IMG/VR virus record: IMGVR_UViG_3300048438_000153
Coordinates: 62,001-126,000 of that record
Origin: a virus
Length of the DNA: 64,000 bases
Strand: one strand, 5' to 3'
How positions within the stretch are numbered: the first letter of the stretch is position 1; each line of letters starts with the position of its first letter. A program made the position numbers and the translations under genes. Of this stretch, positions 38,840 to 64,000 are shown piece by piece. The notes under the pieces were generated by a model that searched no databases, had not been told where the DNA came from, and was given only the letters and a program-made list of their open reading frames with translations.

Positions 38840-39161
38840 GATCCCCCGCAAGCATATTAGAAAGTTCCTCAACAAAGACCCTGAAACCATTGATATTATT
38901 AAGAAATGGCTCGACAAGAATGGGCTGATCATTCTCTTTACTCAAAGAAAAGCAAAGGGGTGGGAAAAAGTTTGGGCCACAGATGGGGGCAATATCTATA
39001 TGAATGATGAGGATCACAACCCTACTTCAGAAGAACTCGACATAAGGATCAGGAAAGTATCTGTGAAAGAGCAAGAGCCATTGCGCGAGGATCTGCTAGG
39101 GAAAGACGTGTCTTTGAGAGACAAACTAGAATACTTAAAAGAGATGGAAAGACCCCTGTAA
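38784..39161 (+). CDS. Hypothetical protein, 125 residues
   Basis: I choose the ATG at 38784 (GGGAG eight bases upstream), which overlaps the preceding gene by 56 nt; a TTG at 38769 is possible. It has basic GKIPRKHIRKFLNKDPETID and helical ends. There is no domain I know. Its stop overlaps the start of the first methyltransferase (TAATG), so the two are translationally coupled. Confidence 0.5.
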   Translation: MKKEEFGDLTWRRVSPLGKIPRKHIRKFLNKDPETIDIIKKWLDKNGLIILFTQRKAKGWEKVWATDGGNIYMNDEDHNPTSEELDIRIRKVSVKEQEPLREDLLGKDVSLRDKLEYLKEMERPL

Positions 39162-40354
39162 TGTTTTTTGAATATGATAAAGAAAAACCAAAGCTCCTAG
39201 ATGAGACAACAATAAATGGCCCGTCAGGAAACCTTTATATCCCCAAAGGGCTTTGGCAAGACATGATCAAATCTTATGAGAAAGAAGATGTCTTGAACCG
39301 CCTCCGAGACTTAATCAACAAGGGAGTGATTTCTTTCCCTTATCAACACTACAGTAAAGAGGAGGTGCTTGACGAGTTTCAGCGACTCAGGAACTCAGTA
39401 GCTTCTTTCTCTGAAAGCGAGTGGGAGTGCAACCGATTGGTGACTGAAGCCCCTCTCTCATTTAGGAGAGGTAGCTACTACACTCCCAAGTCAGCTCGGG
39501 TTGGGAGTAAGGTGTCTGATTTGTTCACACAGAGAATAAGAATGGAGGTTGGACATCAGAGGTTTCTTTCTCCTATAAGAGCGTGGGAGAGTGAAAGAAA
39601 GTCCTTTCTCAACTATCTCTTCAACCCTGATATGTTTGAAGGAGACATCAACGAAAGATGTCTCAGAGTTTCGCTGAGTATGAGGTCATACATTGCGAGT
39701 CAGTTCAAACCTGAGTCAGCTAAGGTCATTTATGATACCTTTCAAGCCAAGAGAGTCCTAGACTTCAGCGCGGGATGGGGAGATAGACTCGTCGGGTTCC
39801 TCGCAAGTAATGCTGAGAGTTATATAGGGATTGACCCTAACTCTAAACTCCACGAACCCTATCAGAAGATTGTCGATTTCTGTGACGTAGGGAAAGAAAC
39901 AAGGTTCATCTGCGCTCCCGCAGAGGAAGCAGATTTAACGGGTGTTGAGGTGGACTTTATATTCACCTCTCCTCCCTATTTCACTCTCGAAAGGTACAGT
40001 CAGGAAGACACTCAGAGTTGGAAGCGATACCCTAAAATCAACGCTTGGCTAGATGGATTTCTATTTCCTACTTTATCTAAGTGTTGGAATTGCCTTGAAG
40101 AAGGGGGGAGAGTACTCGTCAATATCGCCGACGCTTATACGAATGGAGAGCGAGAGGAAATATGTCAGCCGATGTTAAGACATATGGAATCTCTTGGGGC
40201 TACTTACGAGGGAGTCATAGGTTACGAAATGGGAGCGAGACCAGGTAAAAACATGGATAATATCGGCAAGACTTTCTGTGAGCCGATATGGGTTTGGAGC
40301 AAAGGGGAAGCTCCCGAACCTAAGTGGAAATCAGATACGTTTTTGGGAGTCTAA
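39161..40354 (+). CDS. SPPY-type DNA methyltransferase, paralog A
   Basis: 397 residues. The N-terminal domain begins MFFEYDKEKP and carries motifs shared by all four copies: a KVSD(L/Q)-F/Y-T-Q box near 117, and an S-Q-F-K-P...A-K box at 180-188. Motif I, V-L-D-F-S-A-G-W-G-D-R-L (199-210), binds AdoMet; GIDPNSKLHEPYQK (223-235) follows as motif II. Motif IV is TSPPYF (269-274). The C-terminus holds the conserved MLRHMESLGATYEGVIGYEM and the end EPIWVWSKGEAPEPKW. SPPY is typical of amino-methyltransferases that make N4-methylcytosine or N6-methyladenine. Target sequence and base cannot be read. The gene starts in TAATG overlap with the gene upstream. Confidence 0.75.
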   Translation: MFFEYDKEKPKLLDETTINGPSGNLYIPKGLWQDMIKSYEKEDVLNRLRDLINKGVISFPYQHYSKEEVLDEFQRLRNSVASFSESEWECNRLVTEAPLSFRRGSYYTPKSARVGSKVSDLFTQRIRMEVGHQRFLSPIRAWESERKSFLNYLFNPDMFEGDINERCLRVSLSMRSYIASQFKPESAKVIYDTFQAKRVLDFSAGWGDRLVGFLASNAESYIGIDPNSKLHEPYQKIVDFCDVGKETRFICAPAEEADLTGVEVDFIFTSPPYFTLERYSQEDTQSWKRYPKINAWLDGFLFPTLSKCWNCLEEGGRVLVNIADAYTNGEREEICQPMLRHMESLGATYEGVIGYEMGARPGKNMDNIGKTFCEPIWVWSKGEAPEPKWKSDTFLGV

Positions 40355-40355
40355 T

Positions 40356-41066
40356 ATGTGGGGTTATTATGGGTCAAAAGCAAAGATTGTTAGTCAATAC
40401 CCGAAGCCGACCAAAGATAAGATTATAGAGCCATTTGCAGGAACTGCTCAATATGCTCTTAAATACTTTGATAGAGACATAGAACTCTATGATAAATATG
40501 AGCTGATCGTAAATCTTTGGAAGTGGTTACAGAAATGTAGCCCAAAAGACATCACATCACTACCTCACTTAAAGGCAGGCGAGAGCGTAGATGATTACGA
40601 ATGGGATTGTGATGAAGCAAAACACTTAATAGGCTTCATCATTTCAGGCGGTGCTACTCAGCCAAAAAAATCAGTGACTAAGTGGAAAGCGGTGATCAGG
40701 CCGAACACTCAAAACTACAAGAAAACTCTCATTTCTTCTAACCTATACAAGATCAGGCATTGGAACATCGAGTGTAAGTCTTATGAAGAAATAGATAACC
40801 AAGAAGCTACTTGGTTCATTGACCCTCCTTATGAAGAGGGGGGGGTATATTACAGACACAGCTCAAAAAACATAGATTTCAGCCACCTTTCAGAATGGTG
40901 TCAGGAACGTGAGGGAGAAGTGATTGTCTGTGAGAAACAAGGTGCGTCTTGGCTTCCCTTTGAACCGCTTACAGAAGTGAAAGGCTTGAAGGCACAGAGC
41001 TTCCAAGAAGCAGTCTGGTTGAAGAACATGAGTTTACCTAAGCAATTAGACTTGTTTGGACTTTAA
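40356..41066 (+). CDS. Dam-like adenine DNA methyltransferase with clamp-binding tail
   Basis: I place the start at 40356 (GGGAG six bases upstream, two bases after the methyltransferase A stop), giving 236 residues. IIEPFAGTAQYAL (23-35) is the AdoMet motif I and FIDPPY (154-159) is motif IV with the DPPY core of N6-adenine methyltransferases. The N-terminal M-W-G-Y-Y-G-S-K and order of motifs resemble the Dam/D12 class. The protein ends KQLDLFGL: QLDLF (230-234) matches the pentapeptide that binds the bacterial sliding clamp. Site-specific adenine methylation of replicating phage DNA is the likely role. Its 3' end is followed by a 33-bp repeat and a methyltransferase remnant. Confidence 0.8.
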   Translation: MWGYYGSKAKIVSQYPKPTKDKIIEPFAGTAQYALKYFDRDIELYDKYELIVNLWKWLQKCSPKDITSLPHLKAGESVDDYEWDCDEAKHLIGFIISGGATQPKKSVTKWKAVIRPNTQNYKKTLISSNLYKIRHWNIECKSYEEIDNQEATWFIDPPYEEGGVYYRHSSKNIDFSHLSEWCQEREGEVIVCEKQGASWLPFEPLTEVKGLKAQSFQEAVWLKNMSLPKQLDLFGL

Positions 41067-41094
41067 GAAATGAAGAACCAAATATTTAACGAGG
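41062..41094 (+). repeat. 33-bp direct repeat, second copy at 42449-42481
   Basis: Both copies read TTTAAGAAATG then AGAACCAAAT and are identical at 29 of 33 positions. Each joins the end of one gene to a small frame beginning M-x-N-Q-I-F-N-E. The mark is likely a recombination or duplication boundary in the modification island. Confidence 0.75.
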
Positions 41095-41246
41095 TCTGCT
41101 TAGAAACCATGTCTCGAATGAGCGATAGCTCAATAGACAAAAACATGAATAACATCGGCAAGACCTTCTGTGAGCCGATATGGGTTTGGAGTAAGGGCGA
41201 AGCCCCTGAGCCCAAGTGGAACCAAGACACTTATTTCGGAGTATGA
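41070..41246 (+). pseudogene. Chimeric methyltransferase remnant, 58 codons
   Basis: The small frame begins MKNQIFNEVCLETMSRM, followed by S-D-S-S-I-D, which matches the N-terminus of classical type II amino-methyltransferases (N-Q-x-F-N-E-D-C-L-E-x-M...S-I-D then the catalytic PPY). The sequence then jumps without DPPY to MNNIGKTFCEPIWVWSKG and ends PEPKWNQDTYFGV, the C-terminal tail of the local SPPY family. So two methyltransferase ends are joined with the catalytic middle lost. The frame is open and has AAG before the ATG, but no enzyme function is possible. I take it as a deletion product. Confidence 0.65.
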
Positions 41247-41249
41247 AGC

Positions 41250-42401
41250 ATGAGTCTTACTAGAAAGAGCTTTCTCAACTCTAAAGGTGAGATATACCTC
41301 ACACAGAAAGAGATTAGAACCCTTGCGAAAGAACATGACATAGAAGAGATTATAGAGGTACTCGGTAAGATCGTAGACGAGTTGCCTTTCCCACTCACTG
41401 AGTACACAGATCAAGAGGTCATAACCGATTTTAATAGGTTAAAAAACACACACCTTGAAGTTATACGGGGCGGTTGGGTGAGCCACAGGATAGATGAGGC
41501 GATCTCTCCTTTATACAGAGGGGAGTCAATAAGATTCCCTAAGACAAGAAACATAGGGGGCAAAGTCTCTAATCAATACACAGAGGCGTTAAGGTTATCT
41601 ACGCCTCATGCGAGATACAAAAGCCACAAAGATCTTTGGTATGCTAAGAGAAAGTATTGGTTAAAGTATTTCTTCAACATCAAGATGCACACAGGAAATC
41701 TCGAACAGGGTAAGCTGAGGCAAGGTTTGTCAGGTCAATATTACTGCTCTCAGTTTAAACCTCTCATCGCTAAGTCAATGTACGATACTTTCCAAGCTAA
41801 GAGAGTCTTAGACTTCAGCGCGGGATGGGGAGACAGACTCGTGGGCTTCCTCGCGAGCGGAGCTGAGAGTTATGTCGGGATAGACCCTAACTCTAAGCTA
41901 CATGAACCCTATCAGAAGATCGCTGATTCTATTTCTGATAGGGTAGCTTCGACTTTCGTCAGCCCTGCGGAAGATTTTGATTATAACTCTGTTGAGTACG
42001 ACTTTGTGTTTACTAGCCCTCCCTATTTCGACCTAGAGAGATACAGCAACGAAGGCACTCAAAGTTGGAAAAGGTACTCAGAATTTGAAGAGTGGGTTCA
42101 AAACTTCCTGTTTAAAACGCTAACCGCCTGTTGGAGAAACCTCTCAGACAACGGTCGGATGATAATTAACATATCTGACATATATTCAAAGGGAGCAAAG
42201 AGAGAGATCTGTAGCCCCATGTTAAGACATATGGAGTCTCTAGGCGCTACCTATGAAGGTGTTATAGGGTATGAGATGGCCCATAAGACTAGCAAATCGG
42301 TTAAGCGACACGATCTGCCTTTCTGCGAGCCTATGTTCGTGTGGTCAAAAGGAAACCCACCTGAGCCTCAGTGGAACTCCCAACTCTTTTTTGAGATCTA
42401 A
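41250..42401 (+). CDS. SPPY-type DNA methyltransferase, paralog B
   Basis: 383 residues, starting MSLTRKSFLNSKGEIYLTQK rather than the M-F-F-(E/D)-Y start of the other three copies, so its N-terminus is divergent or replaced. Motif I V-L-D-F-S-A-G-W-G-D-R-L is at 186-197, GIDPN at about 210, and TSPPYF at 255-260. KVSNQY (105-110) and SQFKP (167-171) are kept. The region after SPPY is the most divergent (NNGRMIINISDIYSKGAKRE), and it ends EPMFVWSKGNPPEPQW then NSQLFFEI instead of DTYFGV. The catalytic residues are intact, so activity is likely. The gene is flanked by methyltransferase remnants on both sides. Confidence 0.72.
   Translation: MSLTRKSFLNSKGEIYLTQKEIRTLAKEHDIEEIIEVLGKIVDELPFPLTEYTDQEVITDFNRLKNTHLEVIRGGWVSHRIDEAISPLYRGESIRFPKTRNIGGKVSNQYTEALRLSTPHARYKSHKDLWYAKRKYWLKYFFNIKMHTGNLEQGKLRQGLSGQYYCSQFKPLIAKSMYDTFQAKRVLDFSAGWGDRLVGFLASGAESYVGIDPNSKLHEPYQKIADSISDRVASTFVSPAEDFDYNSVEYDFVFTSPPYFDLERYSNEGTQSWKRYSEFEEWVQNFLFKTLTACWRNLSDNGRMIINISDIYSKGAKREICSPMLRHMESLGATYEGVIGYEMAHKTSKSVKRHDLPFCEPMFVWSKGNPPEPQWNSQLFFEI
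42207..42256 (+). repeat. 50-bp block identical in three methyltransferase genes
   Basis: The block ending CTAGGCGCTACCTATGA occurs without mismatch at 42207-42256, 45987-46036 and 47179-47228; paralog A (about 40165-40210) has diverged. It encodes S-P-M-L-R-H-M-E-S-L-G-A-T-Y-E. Identity at silent positions points to recent duplication or gene conversion. Confidence 0.8.
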
Positions 42402-42453
42402 GACTCCTGACCCTGAGCCTAAGTGGACACAAGACAACTTCTTCGGAGTTTAA
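42402..42453 (+). pseudogene. Methyltransferase C-terminal tail remnant
   Basis: Directly after the paralog B stop, another frame reads P-D-P-E-P-K-W-T-Q-D-N-F-F-G-V and stops, the same end as the tails of paralogs A, C and D. There is no start codon. It appears to be left by recombination that replaced the end of one gene with another. Confidence 0.6.
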
Positions 42454-42456
42454 GAA

Positions 42457-42537
42457 ATGCAGAACCAAATCTTCAATGAGGAGTACTTCAAGATGTCGAA
42501 AGTAAGACTAGAAAACACTCAGGAGTATCTTTTCTAA
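42457..42537 (+). pseudogene. 26-codon frame beginning like a methyltransferase N-terminus
   Basis: MQNQIFNEEYFKMSKVRLEN repeats the N-Q-I-F-N-E start of the remnant at 41070 and then diverges; it stops in TAATG overlap with the thymidylate-synthase-like gene. It may be a decayed methyltransferase start now serving as a leader for translation of the next gene. Confidence 0.5.
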
Positions 42538-43238
42538 TGCACCACATACAAGAAAGAAACTGCGCTGAAGCGTGGATTAAAGCCACTCAAGACATCCTCT
42601 CTAAAGGAGAGAATATGGGTGGCCTATACGAGATCCTCAATATGGGGATAGAAATCACTTCCTCTGAGGTATGTCCTGTCTTTGACAGCCATTTCAGAGA
42701 CGTCTTCGGAGACGAGAGAATAGACTATGCTAAGTCTGTCACTTTCATCGAGCCTAAGCCCAACCCTCTCTTTCCCGATTTAAGAGAATACGAGCAGAAC
42801 AAGACGGGGAAATGGACAAATAGCTATTGGGGTCGGATGTTCTCTTGGAACGGCGGATTCAACCAAGTCGAACAGACGATTAAGAGACTGAAAGAGAACA
42901 AGCAAGCCAAGACCATCGTAATCGGAGTCTACGACCCTCAGACTGACGGAAAGAAAGTCATGGGAGGGATGCCCTGTCTGCTCACCATAGACCTCAAGCC
43001 TAGAGGCGGTAAACTTAACCTCACAGCTAACTTTAGGAGTCAGGCTGTCTCCAAGTCAGGGTATGCGGATTACATGGCTCTCGTAGAGTTCTGTGACTTC
43101 CTCTGCAAAGAGAGCGGGTGTCTCGACTTTGGGTTAGTGACTTCTTTCGCTCACTCATGTCATGTGAGGACTCAAAACGGAGAACTTAAGAAATCCAAGG
43201 AGCTGATGAGGAGATATCATGAAGAAATGGGTAGCTGA
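42537..43238 (+). CDS. Thymidylate-synthase-like nucleotide (hydroxy)methyltransferase, possibly dCMP type
   Basis: 233 residues, shorter than standard ThyA. MPCLLTIDLKPRGGKLNL holds the catalytic Cys147 (P-C, though the following His is Leu), and FRSQ (166-169) is the phosphate-binding Arg-Ser motif. In GYADYMALVEF, the residue that is Asn in dUMP enzymes appears as Asp178. Asp at this place distinguishes T4 dCMP hydroxymethylase from thymidylate synthase, so dCMP is a likely substrate, to give 5-methyl- or 5-hydroxymethyl-dCMP. A dUMP enzyme cannot be excluded by eye. The start overlaps the preceding small frame (TAATG) and the end overlaps the PP-loop gene by 20 nt, making a coupled cassette. 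Confidence 0.65.
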   Translation: MHHIQERNCAEAWIKATQDILSKGENMGGLYEILNMGIEITSSEVCPVFDSHFRDVFGDERIDYAKSVTFIEPKPNPLFPDLREYEQNKTGKWTNSYWGRMFSWNGGFNQVEQTIKRLKENKQAKTIVIGVYDPQTDGKKVMGGMPCLLTIDLKPRGGKLNLTANFRSQAVSKSGYADYMALVEFCDFLCKESGCLDFGLVTSFAHSCHVRTQNGELKKSKELMRRYHEEMGS

Positions 43239-44130
43239 TTTTAAGAGTATTCTTTACTCCACTATAGAGGCTCTCCCCCCTGAAGTGAGTCTTTCTTTCT
43301 CGGGTGGCGTTGACTCCTCTATGCTTTTATTCGCTATGATTGATTTAGGCAGACCCCCTACAGAGCTCATCACATTCAAGATTGTAGGGGAATACTCTAA
43401 GGACTTAGATTTCGCTAGAAAGACCGCCCATCATTACGGCATCCCTTTGAGGGTTGCTCAGATCCCAAGTAACCCTCAAAAGAAAGACCTCGAAAGAGAG
43501 ATTAAAGAGATTCTTAGAGAAACGAGAGTTTCTCGGAGCATAGACACTCAGGTGTCCTATGCCTACTCCTACATGACCTCAATCACCTCAACTGACCATC
43601 TTGTTCTCGGGTTCTACGAGGACTTGTACTGCCTCAACAATAAGAAAAACTCTGTCATGTATAGCAATATGCTAAAGGGAAATCTCTCTGAGAAAGAGTT
43701 CGTTTCTTGGATCAATCAAGAAAGAGTCGAAATATATCAAGGCAAGGTTGCAGGGCGCAAAGCTCAGATTGACCACAACTATGTCGTGATCTCTAACTAC
43801 ATTGAGTCTAAGGGTATTCAGACTATCTGTCCCCTCAGAAATCAGGAGATGTTGGATCATTGTCTTAAGAAAGGGTTTGAAGATCTGACGTTCGATCTGA
43901 ATGGAAAGAGAAGGTCTAAGTGGTTCATCAAAGACATGATCTTTAAGAAGTATTTCGACCAACACAAAACCAACATATCTAACTTTCATACATCGGGAAA
44001 AGAAGGTGGGCTGAAAGGTCTGCATCAGAGGGTGCTTCTAACAGGATCACCATACAAAGACACAAGAGCAATTTACAATCAAATACTTAAAGACATTGAG
44101 TTTGAAGAGAGCGCGCATTTCCTATGCTAA
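43219..44130 (+). CDS. PP-loop ATPase, asparagine-synthetase-C-like
   Basis: 303 residues. LSFSGGVDSSMLLFAM (residues 25-40) is a PP-loop that binds ATP and releases pyrophosphate after adenylating a substrate. The later TDHLVLGFYEDLYCLN and RRSKWFIKDMIFKKYF segments follow the order seen in the synthetase domain of asparagine synthetase. There is no glutaminase domain, so nitrogen would come from elsewhere. GAGGAG precedes the ATG, which lies within the end of the synthase-like gene; the stop overlaps the PLP gene. In a modification cassette such an enzyme could activate a base or an amino acid for coupling. Substrate is unknown; QueC- or TilS-like enzymes are alternatives. Confidence 0.7.
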   Translation: MKKWVADFKSILYSTIEALPPEVSLSFSGGVDSSMLLFAMIDLGRPPTELITFKIVGEYSKDLDFARKTAHHYGIPLRVAQIPSNPQKKDLEREIKEILRETRVSRSIDTQVSYAYSYMTSITSTDHLVLGFYEDLYCLNNKKNSVMYSNMLKGNLSEKEFVSWINQERVEIYQGKVAGRKAQIDHNYVVISNYIESKGIQTICPLRNQEMLDHCLKKGFEDLTFDLNGKRRSKWFIKDMIFKKYFDQHKTNISNFHTSGKEGGLKGLHQRVLLTGSPYKDTRAIYNQILKDIEFEESAHFLC

Positions 44131-44957
44131 ACCTACACACACCTGTCGAAACTTACCGCATAGAAAGCACTGAGGTAGACGTTAAGAGAGATGACCTTCA
44201 TAATGGAGATCTCGACCTCCCTCCTTGGGCAAAGCTAGAGGGGGTGCGCCAACTACTCCTCTCAGACTGCTTCGATAAAAGAAAGCCCATCGTACACCTA
44301 ACTATCAGAGGTTCATACACAGGGTGGGCTCTTTCTTATTTCGGGAGAGAATACGGGTACGACATCAAGATCGCCTATCCGAAAACCAAGTCTTACCCTC
44401 AAGAAATGCTCGATAAGATCACTCAATATGGAGGGGAACTTGTGCCTCTCCGACATAATATGGTGGCGGTTCTCTCAGCTCAGGTTAAGAAGATGGCTAA
44501 AGAGCGCGGGTGGCAAATGAGCCCCGACGCTTTCAACCACCCTGTCTATGTAAAGTCTTGGAAAGAAAGATCTGCTTCTTTCTTTCAAGAGAACGACTAT
44601 CAGACCCTCGTCATTCAAGGGGGGAGTGGAGTTACGAGTGTTGGACTCATTCAGAGTTTTCTCGGTGTAGATTACATTGCGGGTCAGATGTTTGAGCCCA
44701 CATACGAGGGAAAGAAAGTAATCATCATCTCCACCTCAAGTGTAAAGACCGTGAAGTCTGCGCTCGTATCAAATATGGGGAGTGTGCCTTCGTGTGTAGA
44801 AATCTACAAATCTGAACATGACTTCTATGACGAGATTCCTACTCATGCGACACCGTTCCCCTGTAACCGTCTGTGGGACAAGAAAGCGTGGGTTTGGATG
44901 ACTCAGAATGTGGGTGAGTTGAAGGATAGAACTCTCTTTTGGAACTTGGGGGCATAA
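44124..44957 (+). CDS. PLP-dependent fold-type II enzyme (ACC deaminase/cysteine synthase group)
   Basis: 277 residues. VDVKRDDLHNGDLDLPPWAK (19-38) carries the probable PLP lysine Lys37, in the place of the lysine in the G-N-K-x-R-K-L motif of ACC deaminase-type enzymes. TIRGSYTGWALSYFG replaces the S-N-H-(A/G) substrate loop. IQGGSGVTSVGL (163-175) is the glycine-rich loop that holds the PLP phosphate. Family members do beta-elimination, beta-replacement or deamination of amino acids. Next to a PP-loop ATPase and a synthase-like enzyme it could make or transfer an amino-acid-derived group to a nucleotide. It is shorter than the usual 330-400 residues. The gene ends three bases before the paralog C start. 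Confidence 0.7.
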   Translation: MLNLHTPVETYRIESTEVDVKRDDLHNGDLDLPPWAKLEGVRQLLLSDCFDKRKPIVHLTIRGSYTGWALSYFGREYGYDIKIAYPKTKSYPQEMLDKITQYGGELVPLRHNMVAVLSAQVKKMAKERGWQMSPDAFNHPVYVKSWKERSASFFQENDYQTLVIQGGSGVTSVGLIQSFLGVDYIAGQMFEPTYEGKKVIIISTSSVKTVKSALVSNMGSVPSCVEIYKSEHDFYDEIPTHATPFPCNRLWDKKAWVWMTQNVGELKDRTLFWNLGA

Positions 44958-44960
44958 GCT

Positions 44961-46184
44961 GTGTTTTTTGAGTACGAGAAAGAACTGCCTAAAACAGATC
45001 TCTCTGACTATAGTCTCCTCAAGAATGGGCAAATCTCTATACCTTCCTATGTATGGCGCGAGATTAAAAACAGCTTCGATAAGAAAGAGGTGATCGAGCA
45101 CATCTCTCAACTTATACAAGATCACAACCTCCCCTACCCGAGTAGGACATACACAAAAGCTGTACTCGACAGGGACTTCAGAAAGCTCAAGAGCGAGTCA
45201 TGTGGTGTGAAAGAGGGATCTTGGGAGTGCTTGAGGACGATCCCTAATGTCACTCTTAAATACCTTAATCGTCAGTGCTACATACAGGCTAGTCAACATG
45301 GTCTAAAAGTCTCGGATCAGCAGACGCATCTCTCTCGCATGAAATGCGCTCACTTCGAGCACAAGAGTCCGTACAGAGAATGGACTCGGCAAGGGTGCAA
45401 GTCGAAGGTCAGATACGTTCTAAGAGTGTTGTGGAGTCTATCAGAAGGAGACGCCCTTAAGAACGGTGTGTGCGAGAAGCAACTGAGAGACTGCTTGAGG
45501 TTGGGCAACTACATGGCGAGTCAGTTCAAGCCCTCATGCGCTAAGACCCTGTATGATTTCTTTCAGGCTAAGAGAGTCTTAGACCTAAGCTCAGGGTGGG
45601 GTGACAGGCTCGTAGGTTTTCTTGCGAGTGGGGCTGAGAGCTATGTCGGGATAGACCCTAACTCTGAACTCCACGAACCCTATCAGAAGATCGCTGACTT
45701 CTGTGACACAGGGAAGGAAACACGATTCATCTGTGATCCCGCAGAGGACGCAGACTTAACGGGTGTTGAGGTGGACTTCGTATTTACGAGCCCCCCTTAC
45801 TTTGACGTTGAAAAGTACAGTGAAGAAGACACTCAGAGTTGGAAACGATATAAGTCGAAAGACCTATGGCTGAATAACTTCTTTCTCCCATCGCTCACTA
45901 AGGCTTGGGAGGCTCTTTCTGAGGGAGGGAGGATAGCCATCAACATCGCAGACAAGGGTCACTCAAGAGAAGATGTGGGCGAGGACATCTGTAGCCCCAT
46001 GTTAAGACATATGGAGTCTCTAGGCGCTACCTATGAGGGGATTATCGGGTATAGGATGAACAAGAGGCCGGGTGACAGAATGGGCGCGGTTGGAGGCGCG
46101 GTTTTCTGTGAGCCGATATGGGTTTGGAGTAAGGGTGAAGCCCCTGATCCCAAGTGGACTCAAGACACCTATTTCGGAGTTTAA
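44961..46184 (+). CDS. SPPY-type DNA methyltransferase, paralog C
   Basis: 407 residues from a GTG start (MFFEYEKELPKTDLS), three bases after the PLP gene. KVSDQQT (116-122), SQFKP (187-191), motif I V-L-D-L-S-S-G-W-G-D-R-L (206-217; Leu-Ser replaces Phe-Ser-Ala), GIDPNSELHEPYQK (about 230) and TSPPYF (276-281) are present. The N-terminal 150 residues are the most cysteine-rich of the four copies, which suggests a different target-recognition surface. The tail is EPIWVWSKGEAPDPKW then TQDTYFGV. After the stop only one base separates it from paralog D. Methylation of DNA is probable; the target is not known. Confidence 0.72.
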   Translation: MFFEYEKELPKTDLSDYSLLKNGQISIPSYVWREIKNSFDKKEVIEHISQLIQDHNLPYPSRTYTKAVLDRDFRKLKSESCGVKEGSWECLRTIPNVTLKYLNRQCYIQASQHGLKVSDQQTHLSRMKCAHFEHKSPYREWTRQGCKSKVRYVLRVLWSLSEGDALKNGVCEKQLRDCLRLGNYMASQFKPSCAKTLYDFFQAKRVLDLSSGWGDRLVGFLASGAESYVGIDPNSELHEPYQKIADFCDTGKETRFICDPAEDADLTGVEVDFVFTSPPYFDVEKYSEEDTQSWKRYKSKDLWLNNFFLPSLTKAWEALSEGGRIAINIADKGHSREDVGEDICSPMLRHMESLGATYEGIIGYRMNKRPGDRMGAVGGAVFCEPIWVWSKGEAPDPKWTQDTYFGV

Positions 46185-46185
46185 G

Positions 46186-47364
46186 ATGTTTTTCGATTAC
46201 GAAAAAGAGATCACATCTCTCGATGAGATCAAGTATATTAAGAACGGTTATTTCCACATCCTCCCTAGTGAGTGGGAGATGCTTAGAAAGTCTTTTACCA
46301 AGGAAGAAATAAAAGACCATATCGCGCCCATCCTGAGTTCATTACCGTACCCCTATTTCGAGTATTCAGAGAAAGAGCTGAGGAGAGATTTCTCTAAGCT
46401 GAAATCACTCTCGAATAAACTCAAGCAAGGGGAATGGGTAGCTACAAGACAAGCAGCAGAAAGAGACACACTCTTTCTCGGTCAGAGTATCTATATGGAC
46501 TGCTACTACACAGGGAAAGGAATATCTGATCAGTACACTCAAGAGGCGCGCTTTAAATGCTCTTATAGAGCTGTCGGTAACTCCCCTTACGACGAGTGGG
46601 TCAGTGCGGACAAGAAGAACTCTTTCTTAAGATGTTTCTTCGGCATCTCAGAGAGGGACATCTACGAAAGAGGAGGAGTCAACAAGCAGACACTCAGGCG
46701 CGCTCTAAAGATGCACACATACACAGCGAGTCAGTTCAAGGCTGAAGCCTCTAAAACCCTGTATGATTTCTTTCAGGCTAAGAGAGTCTTAGACTTCAGT
46801 GCAGGATGGGGTGACAGGCTCGTGGGTTTCCTCGCTAGCGGAGCAGATAGTTATGTCGGGATAGACCCTAACTCTAAGCTACATGAACCCTATCAGAAGA
46901 TCGTCGATTTCTGTAACACAGGGAAGGAAACACGATTCATCTGTGCTCCCGCAGAGGACGCAGACTTAACAGGTGTTGAGGTGGACTTCGTGTTTACAAG
47001 TCCTCCCTATTTTGACATAGAGAGATACAGTGACGAAGACACTCAGAGTTGGAAACGATACCCTGAAATAGACTCTTGGGTCGAGGGCTTCTTCCTCCCC
47101 ACTCTAAGCAAGTGTTGGAGTGTTCTTTCTGAGGGCGGGAGAATACTTGTCAACATCGCCGATAAGAAGGGCAACGACATCTGTAGCCCCATGTTAAGAC
47201 ATATGGAGTCTCTAGGCGCTACCTATGAGGGTGTTATAGGCTACCGTATGTCAGAAAGAGGAGGGCAAAAGACCACCGTACCGAGCTGTGAGCCGATATG
47301 GGTTTGGTCTAAAGGCGACGCGCCCGAACCTAAGTGGACTCAAGACACCTATTTCGGAGTTTAA
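46186..47364 (+). CDS. SPPY-type DNA methyltransferase, paralog D
   Basis: I choose the ATG at 46186, two bases after paralog C, because it gives the family start MFFDYEKEIT; an in-frame ATG at 46072 inside paralog C is rejected. 392 residues. GISDQYTQ (111-119), SQFKAE (182-187), V-L-D-F-S-A-G-W-G-D-R-L (201-212), GIDPNSKLHEPYQK (225-238) and TSPPYFD (271-277) are all kept. From motif I to the tail it is the copy closest to A and C, while its first 150 residues differ. It ends EPIWVWSKGDAPEPKW then TQDTYFGV. Its stop lies three bases from the convergent histone-like gene. Confidence 0.74.
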   Translation: MFFDYEKEITSLDEIKYIKNGYFHILPSEWEMLRKSFTKEEIKDHIAPILSSLPYPYFEYSEKELRRDFSKLKSLSNKLKQGEWVATRQAAERDTLFLGQSIYMDCYYTGKGISDQYTQEARFKCSYRAVGNSPYDEWVSADKKNSFLRCFFGISERDIYERGGVNKQTLRRALKMHTYTASQFKAEASKTLYDFFQAKRVLDFSAGWGDRLVGFLASGADSYVGIDPNSKLHEPYQKIVDFCNTGKETRFICAPAEDADLTGVEVDFVFTSPPYFDIERYSDEDTQSWKRYPEIDSWVEGFFLPTLSKCWSVLSEGGRILVNIADKKGNDICSPMLRHMESLGATYEGVIGYRMSERGGQKTTVPSCEPIWVWSKGDAPEPKWTQDTYFGV

Positions 47365-47562: not shown

Positions 47563-47682
47563 ATCTTTTCTCCGATATAGGTGTTGGTGTGTGGGAATGA
47601 GTCGGAACTGACTCATGAACATTTATACCGATCAGTTTTACTTTTATACCTAGTTAAGAGAAAAGTAGAAAGAGGGACACTC
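47563..47682. promoter_or_regulatory. Divergent intergenic region with small palindrome
   Basis: This 120-nt gap serves the histone-like gene (minus) and the HAD-like gene (plus). CCGATATAGG at 47567-47576 resembles the plus-strand promoter element, but lies over 100 nt from the plus start. ATGAGTC and GACTCAT (47597-47616) form a 7-bp palindrome with a 6-nt spacer, a possible operator. A TTTTATACC stretch nearer the plus start could be a second promoter. Confidence 0.35.
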
Positions 47683-48354
47683 ATGAGAACAATCACAGCA
47701 AGAGTCGCCACAAAGTTCTTAAAGAAAGCAGCGGAAAGTCTTGAGATACACATCTATGACTTCGATGGAACTCTGTTCCGTAGTCCTGAAGCTCCTGAGT
47801 GGTGGAGTAAAAGAAGATATGGTCAGTGGCACTCCAACCAATCTTCATTGGGTCAGCCCTTTGTGCCTAACAACCCTTCTTCAGACTATTGGATTAACGG
47901 CGTAGTAGAGGAAGCAAAGAAGTCCATAGCAGACTTGAATACTTGGGCAGTCATGTGTACAGGACGCATCGACACAGGAGCTCTCAGATACAGAGTGGCT
48001 GAGTTACTGAGGCAAGAGGGTCTTGATTTCGATCAGAACTTTCTTAACGACACAGGTAGGCTGACAAGACCCTACAAGAAAGTGACTCTAATCGAACTCC
48101 TGAAGCAGTTCCCACAGGTCAAGAAAGTCGTTGTGTGGGAGGACACTCAGAAAAACCTCGACGCGCTCGAAAGCATCTGCGACAGGATCGGGATCGAGTT
48201 TGAAGGGAAGCTCATTTCTGAGAGGCTTCTCTCTTCAAACCACATCTCAGAGGATGAATACATAGACTTTCTTAGAGGAGAGCTCTCCGCTAAAGAGTTC
48301 ACTCAGATCTATAAGGCTCTACAGAAGAGTAGAAAGAGAAAGCAAGAATTATGA
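47683..48354 (+). CDS. HAD-superfamily phosphatase-like protein with RVAT tag
   Basis: I choose the ATG at 47683 (AGAGGG upstream), giving 223 residues that start MRTITARVATKFLKKAAESL, a form of the shared R-V-A-S tag. HAD motif I is IYDFDGTLF (Asp26, Asp28, Thr30), motif II is MCTGR (Thr93), Lys133 or a neighbour could be motif III and WEDTQKN (152-158) is motif IV. The DFDGTLFRSPEAPEWW region and a cap insertion resemble the HAD domain of Swiss-army-knife RNA repair proteins, suggesting a polynucleotide phosphatase. A small-molecule phosphatase is also possible. It overlaps the next tagged gene by four bases. Confidence 0.7.
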   Translation: MRTITARVATKFLKKAAESLEIHIYDFDGTLFRSPEAPEWWSKRRYGQWHSNQSSLGQPFVPNNPSSDYWINGVVEEAKKSIADLNTWAVMCTGRIDTGALRYRVAELLRQEGLDFDQNFLNDTGRLTRPYKKVTLIELLKQFPQVKKVVVWEDTQKNLDALESICDRIGIEFEGKLISERLLSSNHISEDEYIDFLRGELSAKEFTQIYKALQKSRKRKQEL

Positions 48355-61073: not shown

Positions 61074-64000
61074 TTAGCCCATCAACATACCCTGAGACTG
61101 ATTAGCTCTCTTAAGGGTTTCTAGCATCGCAGAAGGGTTGTTTCCGTTGATGTTATAGTTGTTGATGATAGTAGCTCCACCCATTCCTCCTCCCCCCGCG
61201 TTGGGGGCATTAGGATTGTAGAAAGCAACCGAATCATCGCTTCGACCTTCCATTAAGTATCCGTTATGGAACAGCATGGGCTTTGTCATCCCTGTAGCGG
61301 AGACGGCATCTTCGGCGTAGTATCTCTTAAATTGCTGTCTGAGATCGGTCAATCTCTCAAGATCCATGCTCTCTTGAGAAGTCAAATCACCCTCTTTCCC
61401 ATAAATTTTAGTTATCTCGCTGTCGAGTTTATTAATGTATGATTTACGACCACTTTCTGTAGAAAAGTCCCCCCCTGGACCCAGCTCTCCCGTAACTTGC
61501 CTTTTTAACTGATCGCGATCATGCTTAAGAAGAGCGTCAAGTTGAGCTTCTGAATACATATCTTTAAGCTTTTTACTCTTAAGCTTTATGTCAAGATCGA
61601 CTTGGGCTCTCTGTTCATTGGCACGTTTAGCTTCAGCCGGGGTCATATTGCCATTCTCTACGAGCTTTTGGATGTCCTCTGCTGAGAGCATTTCCTTTCT
61701 ATAATCTTTCAGATTACCAAGTTCCTCTTGCTCTGCAAGGAATCTACTAGAGACACCTTCAACTCTCCCACTTGAGAGCTTTATGTCTCCTGTACTGCTA
61801 TAGTTTCTGCGGGAGAAAAAGCTATCTGCATGAGTGGCTTGTACGTTACCGTCATAGTAGTTCTGAGAGAACTTCGCGCCCTCGTCTGAAGCTCCAAAGC
61901 TAACGCCTCTAGTGGTTTTGATATCCTCCATAACCAGCTCACCCAGACTCCCCCTTTGTTCTGCTATTCTCTGAATATCTCCTCCTGAAGCTTTCATGCC
62001 ATAAGACTTTATCAGCTTTTCGAGGAACTCCTGATGATCACTATCTCCCGCTTTACCTCCCTTTAGGACTGCCAAGAAGTCTGCGTTAGAAACACCCTTA
62101 CGCTTGAGCTGTTGCCTTAAGAACTCACCACCACCTTCATGCTTTTGAAGTAGACCTGCGAGCTCTTGATCAGCGCCCTCGTCAGTTAATCTATGAATAG
62201 CTTCGCCCCTTGCGCTCCCTGTGTCTATATTCGACGCATATACCTTAGCTTCCTCTTTCTTTATTTTAAGCTCAAGCTCTCTTCTCTTAAACCCGTCCTC
62301 GGCCAATTTCCTCTTTTTCTCCTCTTCCTTGATAGCCTTTTCCTTAATTTCAGGGTTTTTCATTTTATCTATCTCAAGTCTTCTCTTAGATGCCCTTTCT
62401 CTTTCCTTTTTTCTTTCTTGAAATAGCGTTTTCCTCCCAACCCGAACCTCCTGTCTAGTCTTTTGAGCCTTCTCAAGATTTCCCTGACGGCCTGTATCAA
62501 ATCTTAAAAACCAAGAAGCAAGCGACAGTATCGGGTCTAAGATGCTTTGCAATAACGACCCTAAGTGGTTGTTGATAACATCTGCGGAGGTCATTGTCGC
62601 ATTAACAACTTCTTGAAGGAGATCCATTTGAGTGAGAGAGTCGAGTTTCTGAGCGTCGAGATCTGCGCCCTGTGCGTGAACATAGTCTTGGATGTTGTCT
62701 ATGACGCGCCCTTGCTTATCGACGATTTTTCCATTTTGAACACTAACCTTATCAGAAAGACCAGCCTCTTCAATGGCTTTCTTCATATTCGCTTCGTCAA
62801 AACCACCTATACCGTCACTTGCGTTGTCTCTAATCTCCTCCAACACTCTGAAGTCATCCCTCATAGCCATATCGAGCAACCTCATCTGCTCTAGCTCATC
62901 GAGGCTCTTTCCAGTCATCTGAGATATCTTCTCCATCTCAATCGCAGTAACATCTCTGAAGCCCTTACCCCCCGTGACATTGTAGAGTTGCTTAAACTGA
63001 GCTGAGAGCGCACCCGACATATCAAGATCACCGAGCGCGAGGGCTTGATTACTCAGACCACCCTTACCTGCTCTAGATAATCTTACTGACTGCATAAGTT
63101 TTCTAGCAGCACCCTCACCTTCTGCACCACCCTTTCTGCGAAGCTCCCCCATTTTTTTTTCTAAGTCAGCGTCGCTCATCTTAGAGAAATCAGTGGCTCG
63201 ATCTATGCCGATTTCTGCCATGATTTTCTTAGTTCTCTTGCTCCTAAAAAGAGCAAAAAAGTCTTTCTTAGTCTGATCTGCTGTCCTCTTGAAAGCTCCC
63301 TTCATGCCTCCCGTCAAGATAATCCTCTTAAACCTTTCTTGGATGCCCTCGCCTTTGAAACCGCCCGCCAAGCCCTTGGTGAAAGCTTGGGCCGCTTCAG
63401 GCCCTAAGACCTTAGAGAGATTGACGAAAAGATTAGCGGCTTCACCTATTCTTATGTTCATCGACCCGATGCCCTGAGACAAGTCCTGAACAACACTGAA
63501 GAAATCCTTTGTGTTAAGAGTGGACTGCTTAGAGAGGTCACGGATGCGCCCGAACTCCTGAGACATCCTCTCCATATAAACTCCGCTTTTGACCGAGATA
63601 CCAAGCTCTTTCCGAAACTCGCTTGAAAATGCAACGAGAGTGCCGAAATCGACACCCAAAGACTTAGCTGAGGCTTGGAAAGTAATTGTAAGGTCTTTAA
63701 TGGTTTCGAGGCTCTTTTTAAGACTCATCCCATCATCTTGAAGAGAGCCGAAGTTAATACCTACCTCATTGAAAGTATAAGCGAGTTGCCTAGCTTCTTC
63801 TAGGGTGACTCCAAGGGCGTTCGCGAAGCCTGCATCAGAAAGACCTTTTCTTATCGTATGGACTGTATCACTAACATTGGTCATCCCATCTGCGAGAAGA
63901 TCCGTCGCACCATAAGAGTCAATGAGCTCTTTGTGTATGCCTTTCATGTTCTCTTCGAGAGCCTGTAAGCCCTTAAAGATCGCAAAAGCCCCCGCTAGCG
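61074..64000 (-). CDS. Tail tape measure protein (partial, N-terminus outside the window)
   Basis: The frame is open to the window edge: before the ATG at 63947 it continues in frame as LAGAFAIFKGLQALEEN, so the real start lies beyond 64000. At least 975 residues are present. The protein is long, helical and hydrophobic in places, with SLETIKDLTITFQASAKSLG, KDFFSVVQDLSQGIG and GLAGGFKGEGIQERF. A long charged coiled coil (about 510-600, with runs of E and K) follows. The end has an NNYNINGNNPSAML region. These are typical of tape measure proteins, which set tail length. The order tape measure, tail proteins, hub, spike supports it. Confidence 0.8.
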   Translation of the reverse strand, partial: LAGAFAIFKGLQALEENMKGIHKELIDSYGATDLLADGMTNVSDTVHTIRKGLSDAGFANALGVTLEEARQLAYTFNEVGINFGSLQDDGMSLKKSLETIKDLTITFQASAKSLGVDFGTLVAFSSEFRKELGISVKSGVYMERMSQEFGRIRDLSKQSTLNTKDFFSVVQDLSQGIGSMNIRIGEAANLFVNLSKVLGPEAAQAFTKGLAGGFKGEGIQERFKRIILTGGMKGAFKRTADQTKKDFFALFRSKRTKKIMAEIGIDRATDFSKMSDADLEKKMGELRRKGGAEGEGAARKLMQSVRLSRAGKGGLSNQALALGDLDMSGALSAQFKQLYNVTGGKGFRDVTAIEMEKISQMTGKSLDELEQMRLLDMAMRDDFRVLEEIRDNASDGIGGFDEANMKKAIEEAGLSDKVSVQNGKIVDKQGRVIDNIQDYVHAQGADLDAQKLDSLTQMDLLQEVVNATMTSADVINNHLGSLLQSILDPILSLASWFLRFDTGRQGNLEKAQKTRQEVRVGRKTLFQERKKERERASKRRLEIDKMKNPEIKEKAIKEEEKKRKLAEDGFKRRELELKIKKEEAKVYASNIDTGSARGEAIHRLTDEGADQELAGLLQKHEGGGEFLRQQLKRKGVSNADFLAVLKGGKAGDSDHQEFLEKLIKSYGMKASGGDIQRIAEQRGSLGELVMEDIKTTRGVSFGASDEGAKFSQNYYDGNVQATHADSFFSRRNYSSTGDIKLSSGRVEGVSSRFLAEQEELGNLKDYRKEMLSAEDIQKLVENGNMTPAEAKRANEQRAQVDLDIKLKSKKLKDMYSEAQLDALLKHDRDQLKRQVTGELGPGGDFSTESGRKSYINKLDSEITKIYGKEGDLTSQESMDLERLTDLRQQFKRYYAEDAVSATGMTKPMLFHNGYLMEGRSDDSVAFYNPNAPNAGGGGMGGATIINNYNINGNNPSAMLETLKRANQSQGMLMG

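Follow-up and report, generated by a model that had tools for sequence, protein, structure and literature searches.

The window analysed here, a stretch of 64,000 nucleotides (positions 62,001 to 126,000) from the IMG/VR virus record IMGVR_UViG_3300048438_000153, contains three overlapping genes that encode a protein with the fold of thymidylate synthase (TS), an asparagine synthetase B (AsnB)-type ligase and a fold-type II pyridoxal 5′-phosphate (PLP) enzyme, situated within an array of DNA methyltransferase genes. We interpret this trio as the core of a phage cassette of new composition for the hypermodification of DNA cytosine, a reading to which we assign a probability of roughly 0.62 from sequence and structure prediction. 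The cassette would probably decorate cytosines of the phage DNA with an amino-acid-like group. Since the combination of enzymes fits none of the three pathways with which it was compared (M6-type thymidine hypermodification, the CmoA/CmoX/CmoY system and the T4-type pathway), the base that results is probably a new one.

An earlier note on this DNA, made without database searches, had described the three genes as a TS-like enzyme, an AsnB-type enzyme lacking glutaminase and a fold-type II PLP enzyme, flanked by DNA methyltransferase genes and fragments. The open reading frames (ORFs), profile matches and AlphaFold and Foldseek results agree with this description, and Pfam searches together with the homology of the remnants confirm the flanking genes (Table 1). 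The TS-like and ligase genes overlap by 20 bp and the ligase and PLP genes by 7 bp. The PALP bit score of the PLP protein, 30.8, is under the Pfam cut-off of 35; phrog_7093 of the PHROGs database covers the protein end to end (3.3e-20), its AlphaFold model (predicted local distance difference test score, pLDDT, 91) has the fold-type II PLP fold and the nearest solved structures retrieved by Foldseek are D-cysteine desulfhydrases (5e-12). Pfam matches to EcoRII-C and RhopH3, each under its own cut-off, were set aside.

The AlphaFold model of the TS-like protein (pLDDT 82, from an alignment of nine rows) has a TS fold, for which the Foldseek search gave MilA as the best match and AfhB as the entry with the highest target-normalised template modelling score among the top matches. 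Searched against the PDB, the family profile matched MilA at 7e-8, AfhB at 3e-6 and true thymidylate synthases at 5e-3 or worse. We compared residues, in TS numbering, across 32 distinct family members. The equivalents of the catalytic Cys146 and of Arg166, Ser167 and His207 are invariant (32/32; Cys147, Arg167 and Ser168 in the window protein), and the position of Asn177, which in TS recognises uracil, is Asp in every sequence (Asp178 in the window), a substitution known to turn TS from deoxyuridine monophosphate to deoxycytidine monophosphate (dCMP) (PMC8670742). Elsewhere in its genome the window phage encodes a separate ThyX, along with ribonucleotide reductase, thymidine kinase, dCMP deaminase, deoxynucleoside kinase and MazG, and the phage carrying one related cassette (L058) has a true ThyA in addition to its TS-like protein. 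ThyX and, in the L058 phage, ThyA make the TS-like protein unnecessary for the synthesis of deoxythymidine monophosphate, and on these grounds, together with the replacement of Asn177, a role as thymidylate synthase was rejected. Its specificity for cytosine is well supported by the residue comparison and, because Asp occupies position 177 throughout the family and ThyX is encoded elsewhere, the target base is probably cytosine; the alternative of thymine, which the earlier note had kept alongside it, is disfavoured.

Asp169 and Gly173 are folate contacts in TS. Across the 32 family members the first of these positions is Ala or Arg and the second is Ser (Ala170 and Ser174 in the window protein), as can be seen by comparing this region in the window protein, RSQAVSKSGYAD, with that in AfhB, RSQNCAVVMQLD. 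T4 gp42, MilA, M6 gp58, T4 TS and a relative from an Enterococcus phage all have the equivalent Asp and Gly. AfhB, described in the titles of its PDB entries as a dCMP hydroxylase and as a flavin-dependent monooxygenase, and with close homologues in Mosigvirus phages, has lost both. Because the family has lost two residues that are kept in all folate-dependent relatives compared, its use of folate is doubtful, as is the 5-hydroxymethyl nucleotide that had been proposed as the first product. The gene of the Enterococcus phage relative (phage nattely, L018:7989-10347) encodes a TS fold, likewise with Asp at its specificity position, and a beta-glucosyltransferase is encoded two genes away; given this neighbour, which suggests glucosylated hydroxymethylcytosine, it probably belongs to the classic hydroxymethylcytosine route and was rejected as a cassette member.

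To follow the cassette in other phages, we used the TS-like family as bait in IMG/VR and recovered 25 viral loci, several of which lie on near-duplicate contigs and one of which is the window phage itself, so that the counts are not independent. The AsnB-type ligase lies in the same cassette in 24 of the 25 loci and the PLP gene in 22, the remaining three carrying a radical S-adenosylmethionine (radical-SAM) gene in its place. Hence the trio travels as a unit, as expected of the coupled cassette proposed before, and its co-occurrence speaks against independent scattering of the genes among relatives. Gene order and overlaps are kept in relatives whose identity is 82-85% for the TS-like protein, about 70% for the PLP enzyme and 49-54% for the ligase, and in the sole pair of loci with unsaturated synonymous divergence (L007 and L008) the ratio of nonsynonymous to synonymous substitution rates is 0.02, 0.06 and 0.09, respectively; the arrangement is, for these reasons, not due to chance. 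Across giant phages the ligase changes fastest of the three proteins, as might be expected if it determines the side chain. A methyltransferase of the N4/N6 type seen in the window adjoins the TS-like gene in most of the relatives' loci, and in one of them (L014:4486-6891) a single ORF of 801 amino acids beside the TS-like gene joins a radical-SAM domain and an N4/N6-type DNA methyltransferase domain in one protein, which ties the methyltransferases to the cassette.

The carriers are numerous phages that have not been cultured, and the neighbouring genes mark several of them as T4-like. Among 84,980 bacterial and archaeal genomes scanned, one distant cassette appeared, in an Ignavibacteria metagenome-assembled genome (CAIOZA010000025.1), with the form methyltransferase-TS-ligase-radical SAM and no PLP gene, on a contig that may represent a prophage or a phage binned with the genome; the scan led to no host assignment for the window phage. 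The cassette as a set was not found in the cultured phage collection searched, nor was a published description of it found in the literature searched. TS matches in Gordonia phages were rejected, as they adjoin thymidylate kinase rather than this cassette.

Individually, the PLP enzyme and the ligase lead to phages with hypermodified DNA. Lys37, invariant in 19 sequences of the PLP family and in M6, is likely to be the Schiff-base lysine. A tblastn search of 50,697 phage records found relatives of the PLP protein in 46 with the window query and in 62-63 with other family members as queries, and these are M6/YuA-type phages of Pseudomonas, Bordetella, Sphaerotilus and Stenotrophomonas, with a Pseudanabaena phage as the one exception. 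The window protein is about 25% identical end to end to gp52 of Pseudomonas phage M6, with which it shares the lysine and C-terminal and other motifs (PFPCN..D.K.W, FWN.G). Lee et al. reportedly found that in M6 this enzyme decarboxylates an amino acid attached to the base. In phage SN1 the homologue is part of an M6-like thymidine-hypermodification set (PMC9476957).

The best PDB match of the ligase profile is 1ct9 (4.4e-13). The window ligase lacks the N-terminal glutaminase domain, which is present in four relatives (L010, L012, L013 and L002); two forms can be distinguished. The window phage, other giant phages and phages of the L108 and L117 types have a short form without glutaminase, and most T4-like contigs have a complete asparagine synthetase. 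CmoY, the enzyme that joins glycine to 5-carboxymethylcytosine in the DNA of Synechococcus phage S-B43 (PMC12783734), retrieves the window ligase as a phmmer query at 7.1e-5 among the 280 proteins of the window genome, with 18-19% identity in alignments. Ligases bearing a glutaminase domain have also been reported for CmoA/CmoX/CmoY-type systems (PMC12783734), and the two forms seen here parallel the two kinds described there. Each gene of the trio thus has relatives or precedents in DNA modification (the M6 PLP enzyme, CmoY, and MilA and AfhB), in line with the role suggested by the earlier note; its view that the set is unlike known ones stands for the set as a whole and not for the parts, two of which have close precedents. 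Erwinia phage pEa_SNUABM_5 (L019:7096-8789) also has a CmoY-like ligase, for which the annotation reads asparagine synthetase, immediately next to a methyltransferase gene whose likeness to CmoA was judged by eye. The window phage also encodes a glutamine-synthetase-fold protein outside the cassette (G000:C1:168684-169379, minus strand, G000 denoting the whole 275,102-bp record), which recurs in three related giant-phage records.

Several observations weigh against cytosine hypermodification as we have described it. Of the four arginines with which TS binds phosphate, two are altered in the window protein (R126 to Lys, R127 to Thr) and a third finds no counterpart in the N-terminal alignment, and TS position 147 is Leu or Met in the family as against Thr in the dCMP enzymes; because of these changes, the substrate may be something other than dCMP, possibly DNA. 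The analogy with AfhB stands on two residues and a shallow, nine-row structure model, and among the cassette genes none clearly attaches an amino acid to a base. Elsewhere, moreover, the same PLP family accompanies a 2-hydroxyacid dehydrogenase, often with Asp/Asn-hydroxylase-like oxygenases, in place of the TS-like gene (Table 1), and in our sample the TS-like gene and this type of dehydrogenase never occur together in one PLP cassette. These arrangements may represent a second way to the substrate; they also fit small-molecule metabolism.

In that alternative the enzymes would make a free amino-acid-type compound, for precursor supply or surface chemistry, and their proximity to methyltransferases would reflect a shared anti-host island. 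AsnB, PLP enzymes, 2-hydroxyacid dehydrogenases and Asp/Asn-hydroxylase-like enzymes are indeed all familiar from the chemistry of free metabolites, but the cytosine type of the TS-fold enzyme, the near confinement of the cultured-phage PLP relatives to phages with M6-type hypermodification, the adjoining methyltransferases and the radical-SAM/methyltransferase fusion make it unlikely. A methyltransferase could instead act first, placing a methyl or other SAM-derived group on the exocyclic N4 of cytosine or N6 of adenine for elaboration by the TS-like protein, the PLP enzyme and the ligase. Three cassettes (L120, L128 and L134) combine methyltransferase, PLP and AsnB genes without a TS-like gene, and the frequent adjacency of methyltransferase and TS-like genes and the fusion in L014 can be read in the same way. 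The chemistry of the TS fold, however, targets C5, the family alignment shows that the methyltransferases of the array resemble ordinary SPPY-type aminomethyltransferases, and no carboxy-SAM synthase was found (see below), so that we consider this route distinctly improbable.

The remaining alternatives are known pathways, whose marker families we sought in G000 and related records, all classed as linear and possibly incomplete. The amino acid:DNA transferase ADDT (PF18724) and the 5-hydroxymethyldeoxyuridine DNA kinase HMUDK (PF18723) were found neither in G000 nor in seven relatives, with M6 as a strong positive control (2.3e-48 and 1.4e-57, respectively); the earlier remark that no kinase or glutamyl/putrescinyl-type gene was seen is borne out, for this kinase and this transferase, over the whole record. 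The carboxy-SAM synthase CmoA (TIGR00740) was absent from G000 and had no credible match in ten relatives (control S-B43, 2.5e-34), and the C5-cytosine methyltransferase CmoX (PF00145) was absent from G000 and seven relatives (control S-B43, 4.9e-54). The known M6 and CmoA/CmoX/CmoY pathways were rejected on this basis. A variant of the M6/ViI thymidine pathway starting from 5-hydroxymethyldeoxyuridine would account for the homologous PLP enzyme; already disfavoured, it is very unlikely in view of the missing ADDT and HMUDK and of Asp rather than Asn at position 177. A 5-carboxymethylcytosine system is scarcely credible, for although the ligase is CmoY-like and both kinds of ligase occur as in that system, CmoA and the C5-methyltransferase were missing where S-B43 was positive in both searches.

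For the cytosine hypermodification that we favour, we propose a scheme in which the handle, the order of steps, the reactions and the product are predictions. Cys147 of the TS-fold protein would attack C6 of cytosine, with Asp178 recognising the base, and C5 would be functionalised without folate to leave a handle, perhaps with the aid of flavin, by analogy with AfhB, and on either dCMP or DNA. The PLP enzyme would build or edit an amino-acid-type group on this handle, as is thought for its M6 relative; in related phages radical-SAM enzymes replace or join it. The AsnB-type ligase could then adenylate a carboxylate and close an amide, whose nitrogen would come from glutamine-derived ammonia in the glutaminase-bearing relatives and from a free amine or amino acid in the window phage. 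The adjacent N4/N6-type methyltransferases would act in the same pathway, perhaps in the choice of site, and the modification would shield phage DNA from host nucleases. We give slightly less than an even chance to the reading in which the chemistry is itself new: a TS-fold enzyme working without folate would place a handle at C5 of cytosine, and the PLP enzyme, together with an AsnB-type ligase forming amides on DNA, would build there an amino-acid side chain that carries an amide. One lineage of the ligase would draw on glutamine-derived ammonia and the other on a free amine. If true, this would add to the known routes of phage DNA hypermodification one in which cytidylate-type TS chemistry is joined with the editing of amino acids and the ligation of amides, and it would bring to light a family of TS-fold proteins that have given up folate. 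A common modification may have gone unnoticed, because the cassette is present in many uncultured phages and, as a set, not in the cultured collection searched.

Around the trio, the array comprises four N6_N4 methyltransferase genes that are related to one another, a single D12 gene and two remnants of methyltransferase C termini (Table 1). The D12 ORF is open from 40278, 40356 being the likelier start, and among the cassette loci compared this gene was found in the array of the window phage only. Decayed methyltransferase copies adjoin an NQIFNE-type stretch at 41069-41245 and 42404-42536, which suggests that recombination adds and removes paralogues in the array. Immediately after the array, at 47581-48354, lies a HAD domain of the Swiss Army Knife RNA-repair family (PF10307, 1.3e-13). 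Elsewhere (G000, 212868-274131) lies the gene for a member of the S-adenosylmethionine lyase family (PF23780, 3.6e-7), despite the several SAM-dependent methyltransferases of the phage.

Table 1. Genes and remnants of the cassette and its methyltransferase array (window coordinates), with loci of related PLP cassettes (coordinates of the named locus)
Feature	Position	Strand	Evidence or remarks
N4/N6-type DNA methyltransferase paralogue	39161..40354	+	Pfam 4.7e-7
D12-class DNA methyltransferase	40356..41066	+	Pfam MethyltransfD12 6.2e-7
C-terminal methyltransferase remnant	41139..41243	+	86% identity to end of 39161 gene
N4/N6-type DNA methyltransferase, upstream of TS-like gene	41250..42401	+	Pfam N6_N4_Mtase 3e-8; motifs DFSAGWGDRL, TSPPYF
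C-terminal methyltransferase remnant from a further copy, ahead of the TS-like gene	42404..42450	+	in-frame PDPEPKWTQDNFFGV
TS-fold protein	42537..43238	+	233 aa; Pfam Thymidylat_synt 5.5e-6
Asparagine-synthetase-type PP-loop ligase	43219..44130	+	303 aa; Pfam Asn_synthase 6.8e-6
Fold-type II PLP enzyme	44124..44957	+	277 aa; Pfam PALP 2.4e-7
N4/N6-type DNA methyltransferase, 3 bp after PLP gene	44961..46184	+	Pfam 4.7e-5 (under family cut-off); phrog_12517; aligned family motifs
N4/N6-type DNA methyltransferase paralogue	46186..47364	+	Pfam 2.3e-7; homology begins at 46186
PLP cassettes with 2-hydroxyacid dehydrogenase, with or without oxygenases	L072:3003-5005, L069:289-2222, L120:5806-6681, L129:3140-5001		

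Compared with the synthetase domain of Escherichia coli asparagine synthetase B (1ct9), the ligase shares the SGGxDS PP-loop and a conserved lysine (Lys234 in the window), which align in all sequences compared, but has no glutaminase domain, and its function is a prediction. The TS-like protein shares with the CMP hydroxymethylase MilA and the dCMP hydroxymethylase T4 gp42 a cytidylate-specific TS fold with Asp at position 177, whereas both of these keep the folate-site Asp and Gly. In size, fold, catalytic Cys, Asp at 177 and the loss of both folate-site residues it resembles AfhB of phage HY126 (PDB 9iqu, 9iqc), which differs in that its Cys is still followed by Thr and its RR pair is intact. 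M6/YuA-like thymidine hypermodification likewise employs a homologous PLP enzyme, with a radical-SAM partner that is matched in some relatives of the window cassette; unlike it, the window phage lacks ADDT and HMUDK, has a TS-fold enzyme of the cytosine rather than the uracil type and possesses the AsnB-type ligase in addition. In the CmoA/CmoX/CmoY system of S-B43, too, a glutaminase-less AsnB-type ligase neighbours a DNA-modifying enzyme, and ligases with glutaminase form a related class (PMC12783734). In place of CmoA and a C5-methyltransferase, the window has TS-fold and PLP enzymes and N4/N6-type methyltransferases, and the amide bond on a cytosine substituent, demonstrated in S-B43 (PMC12783734), is predicted here.

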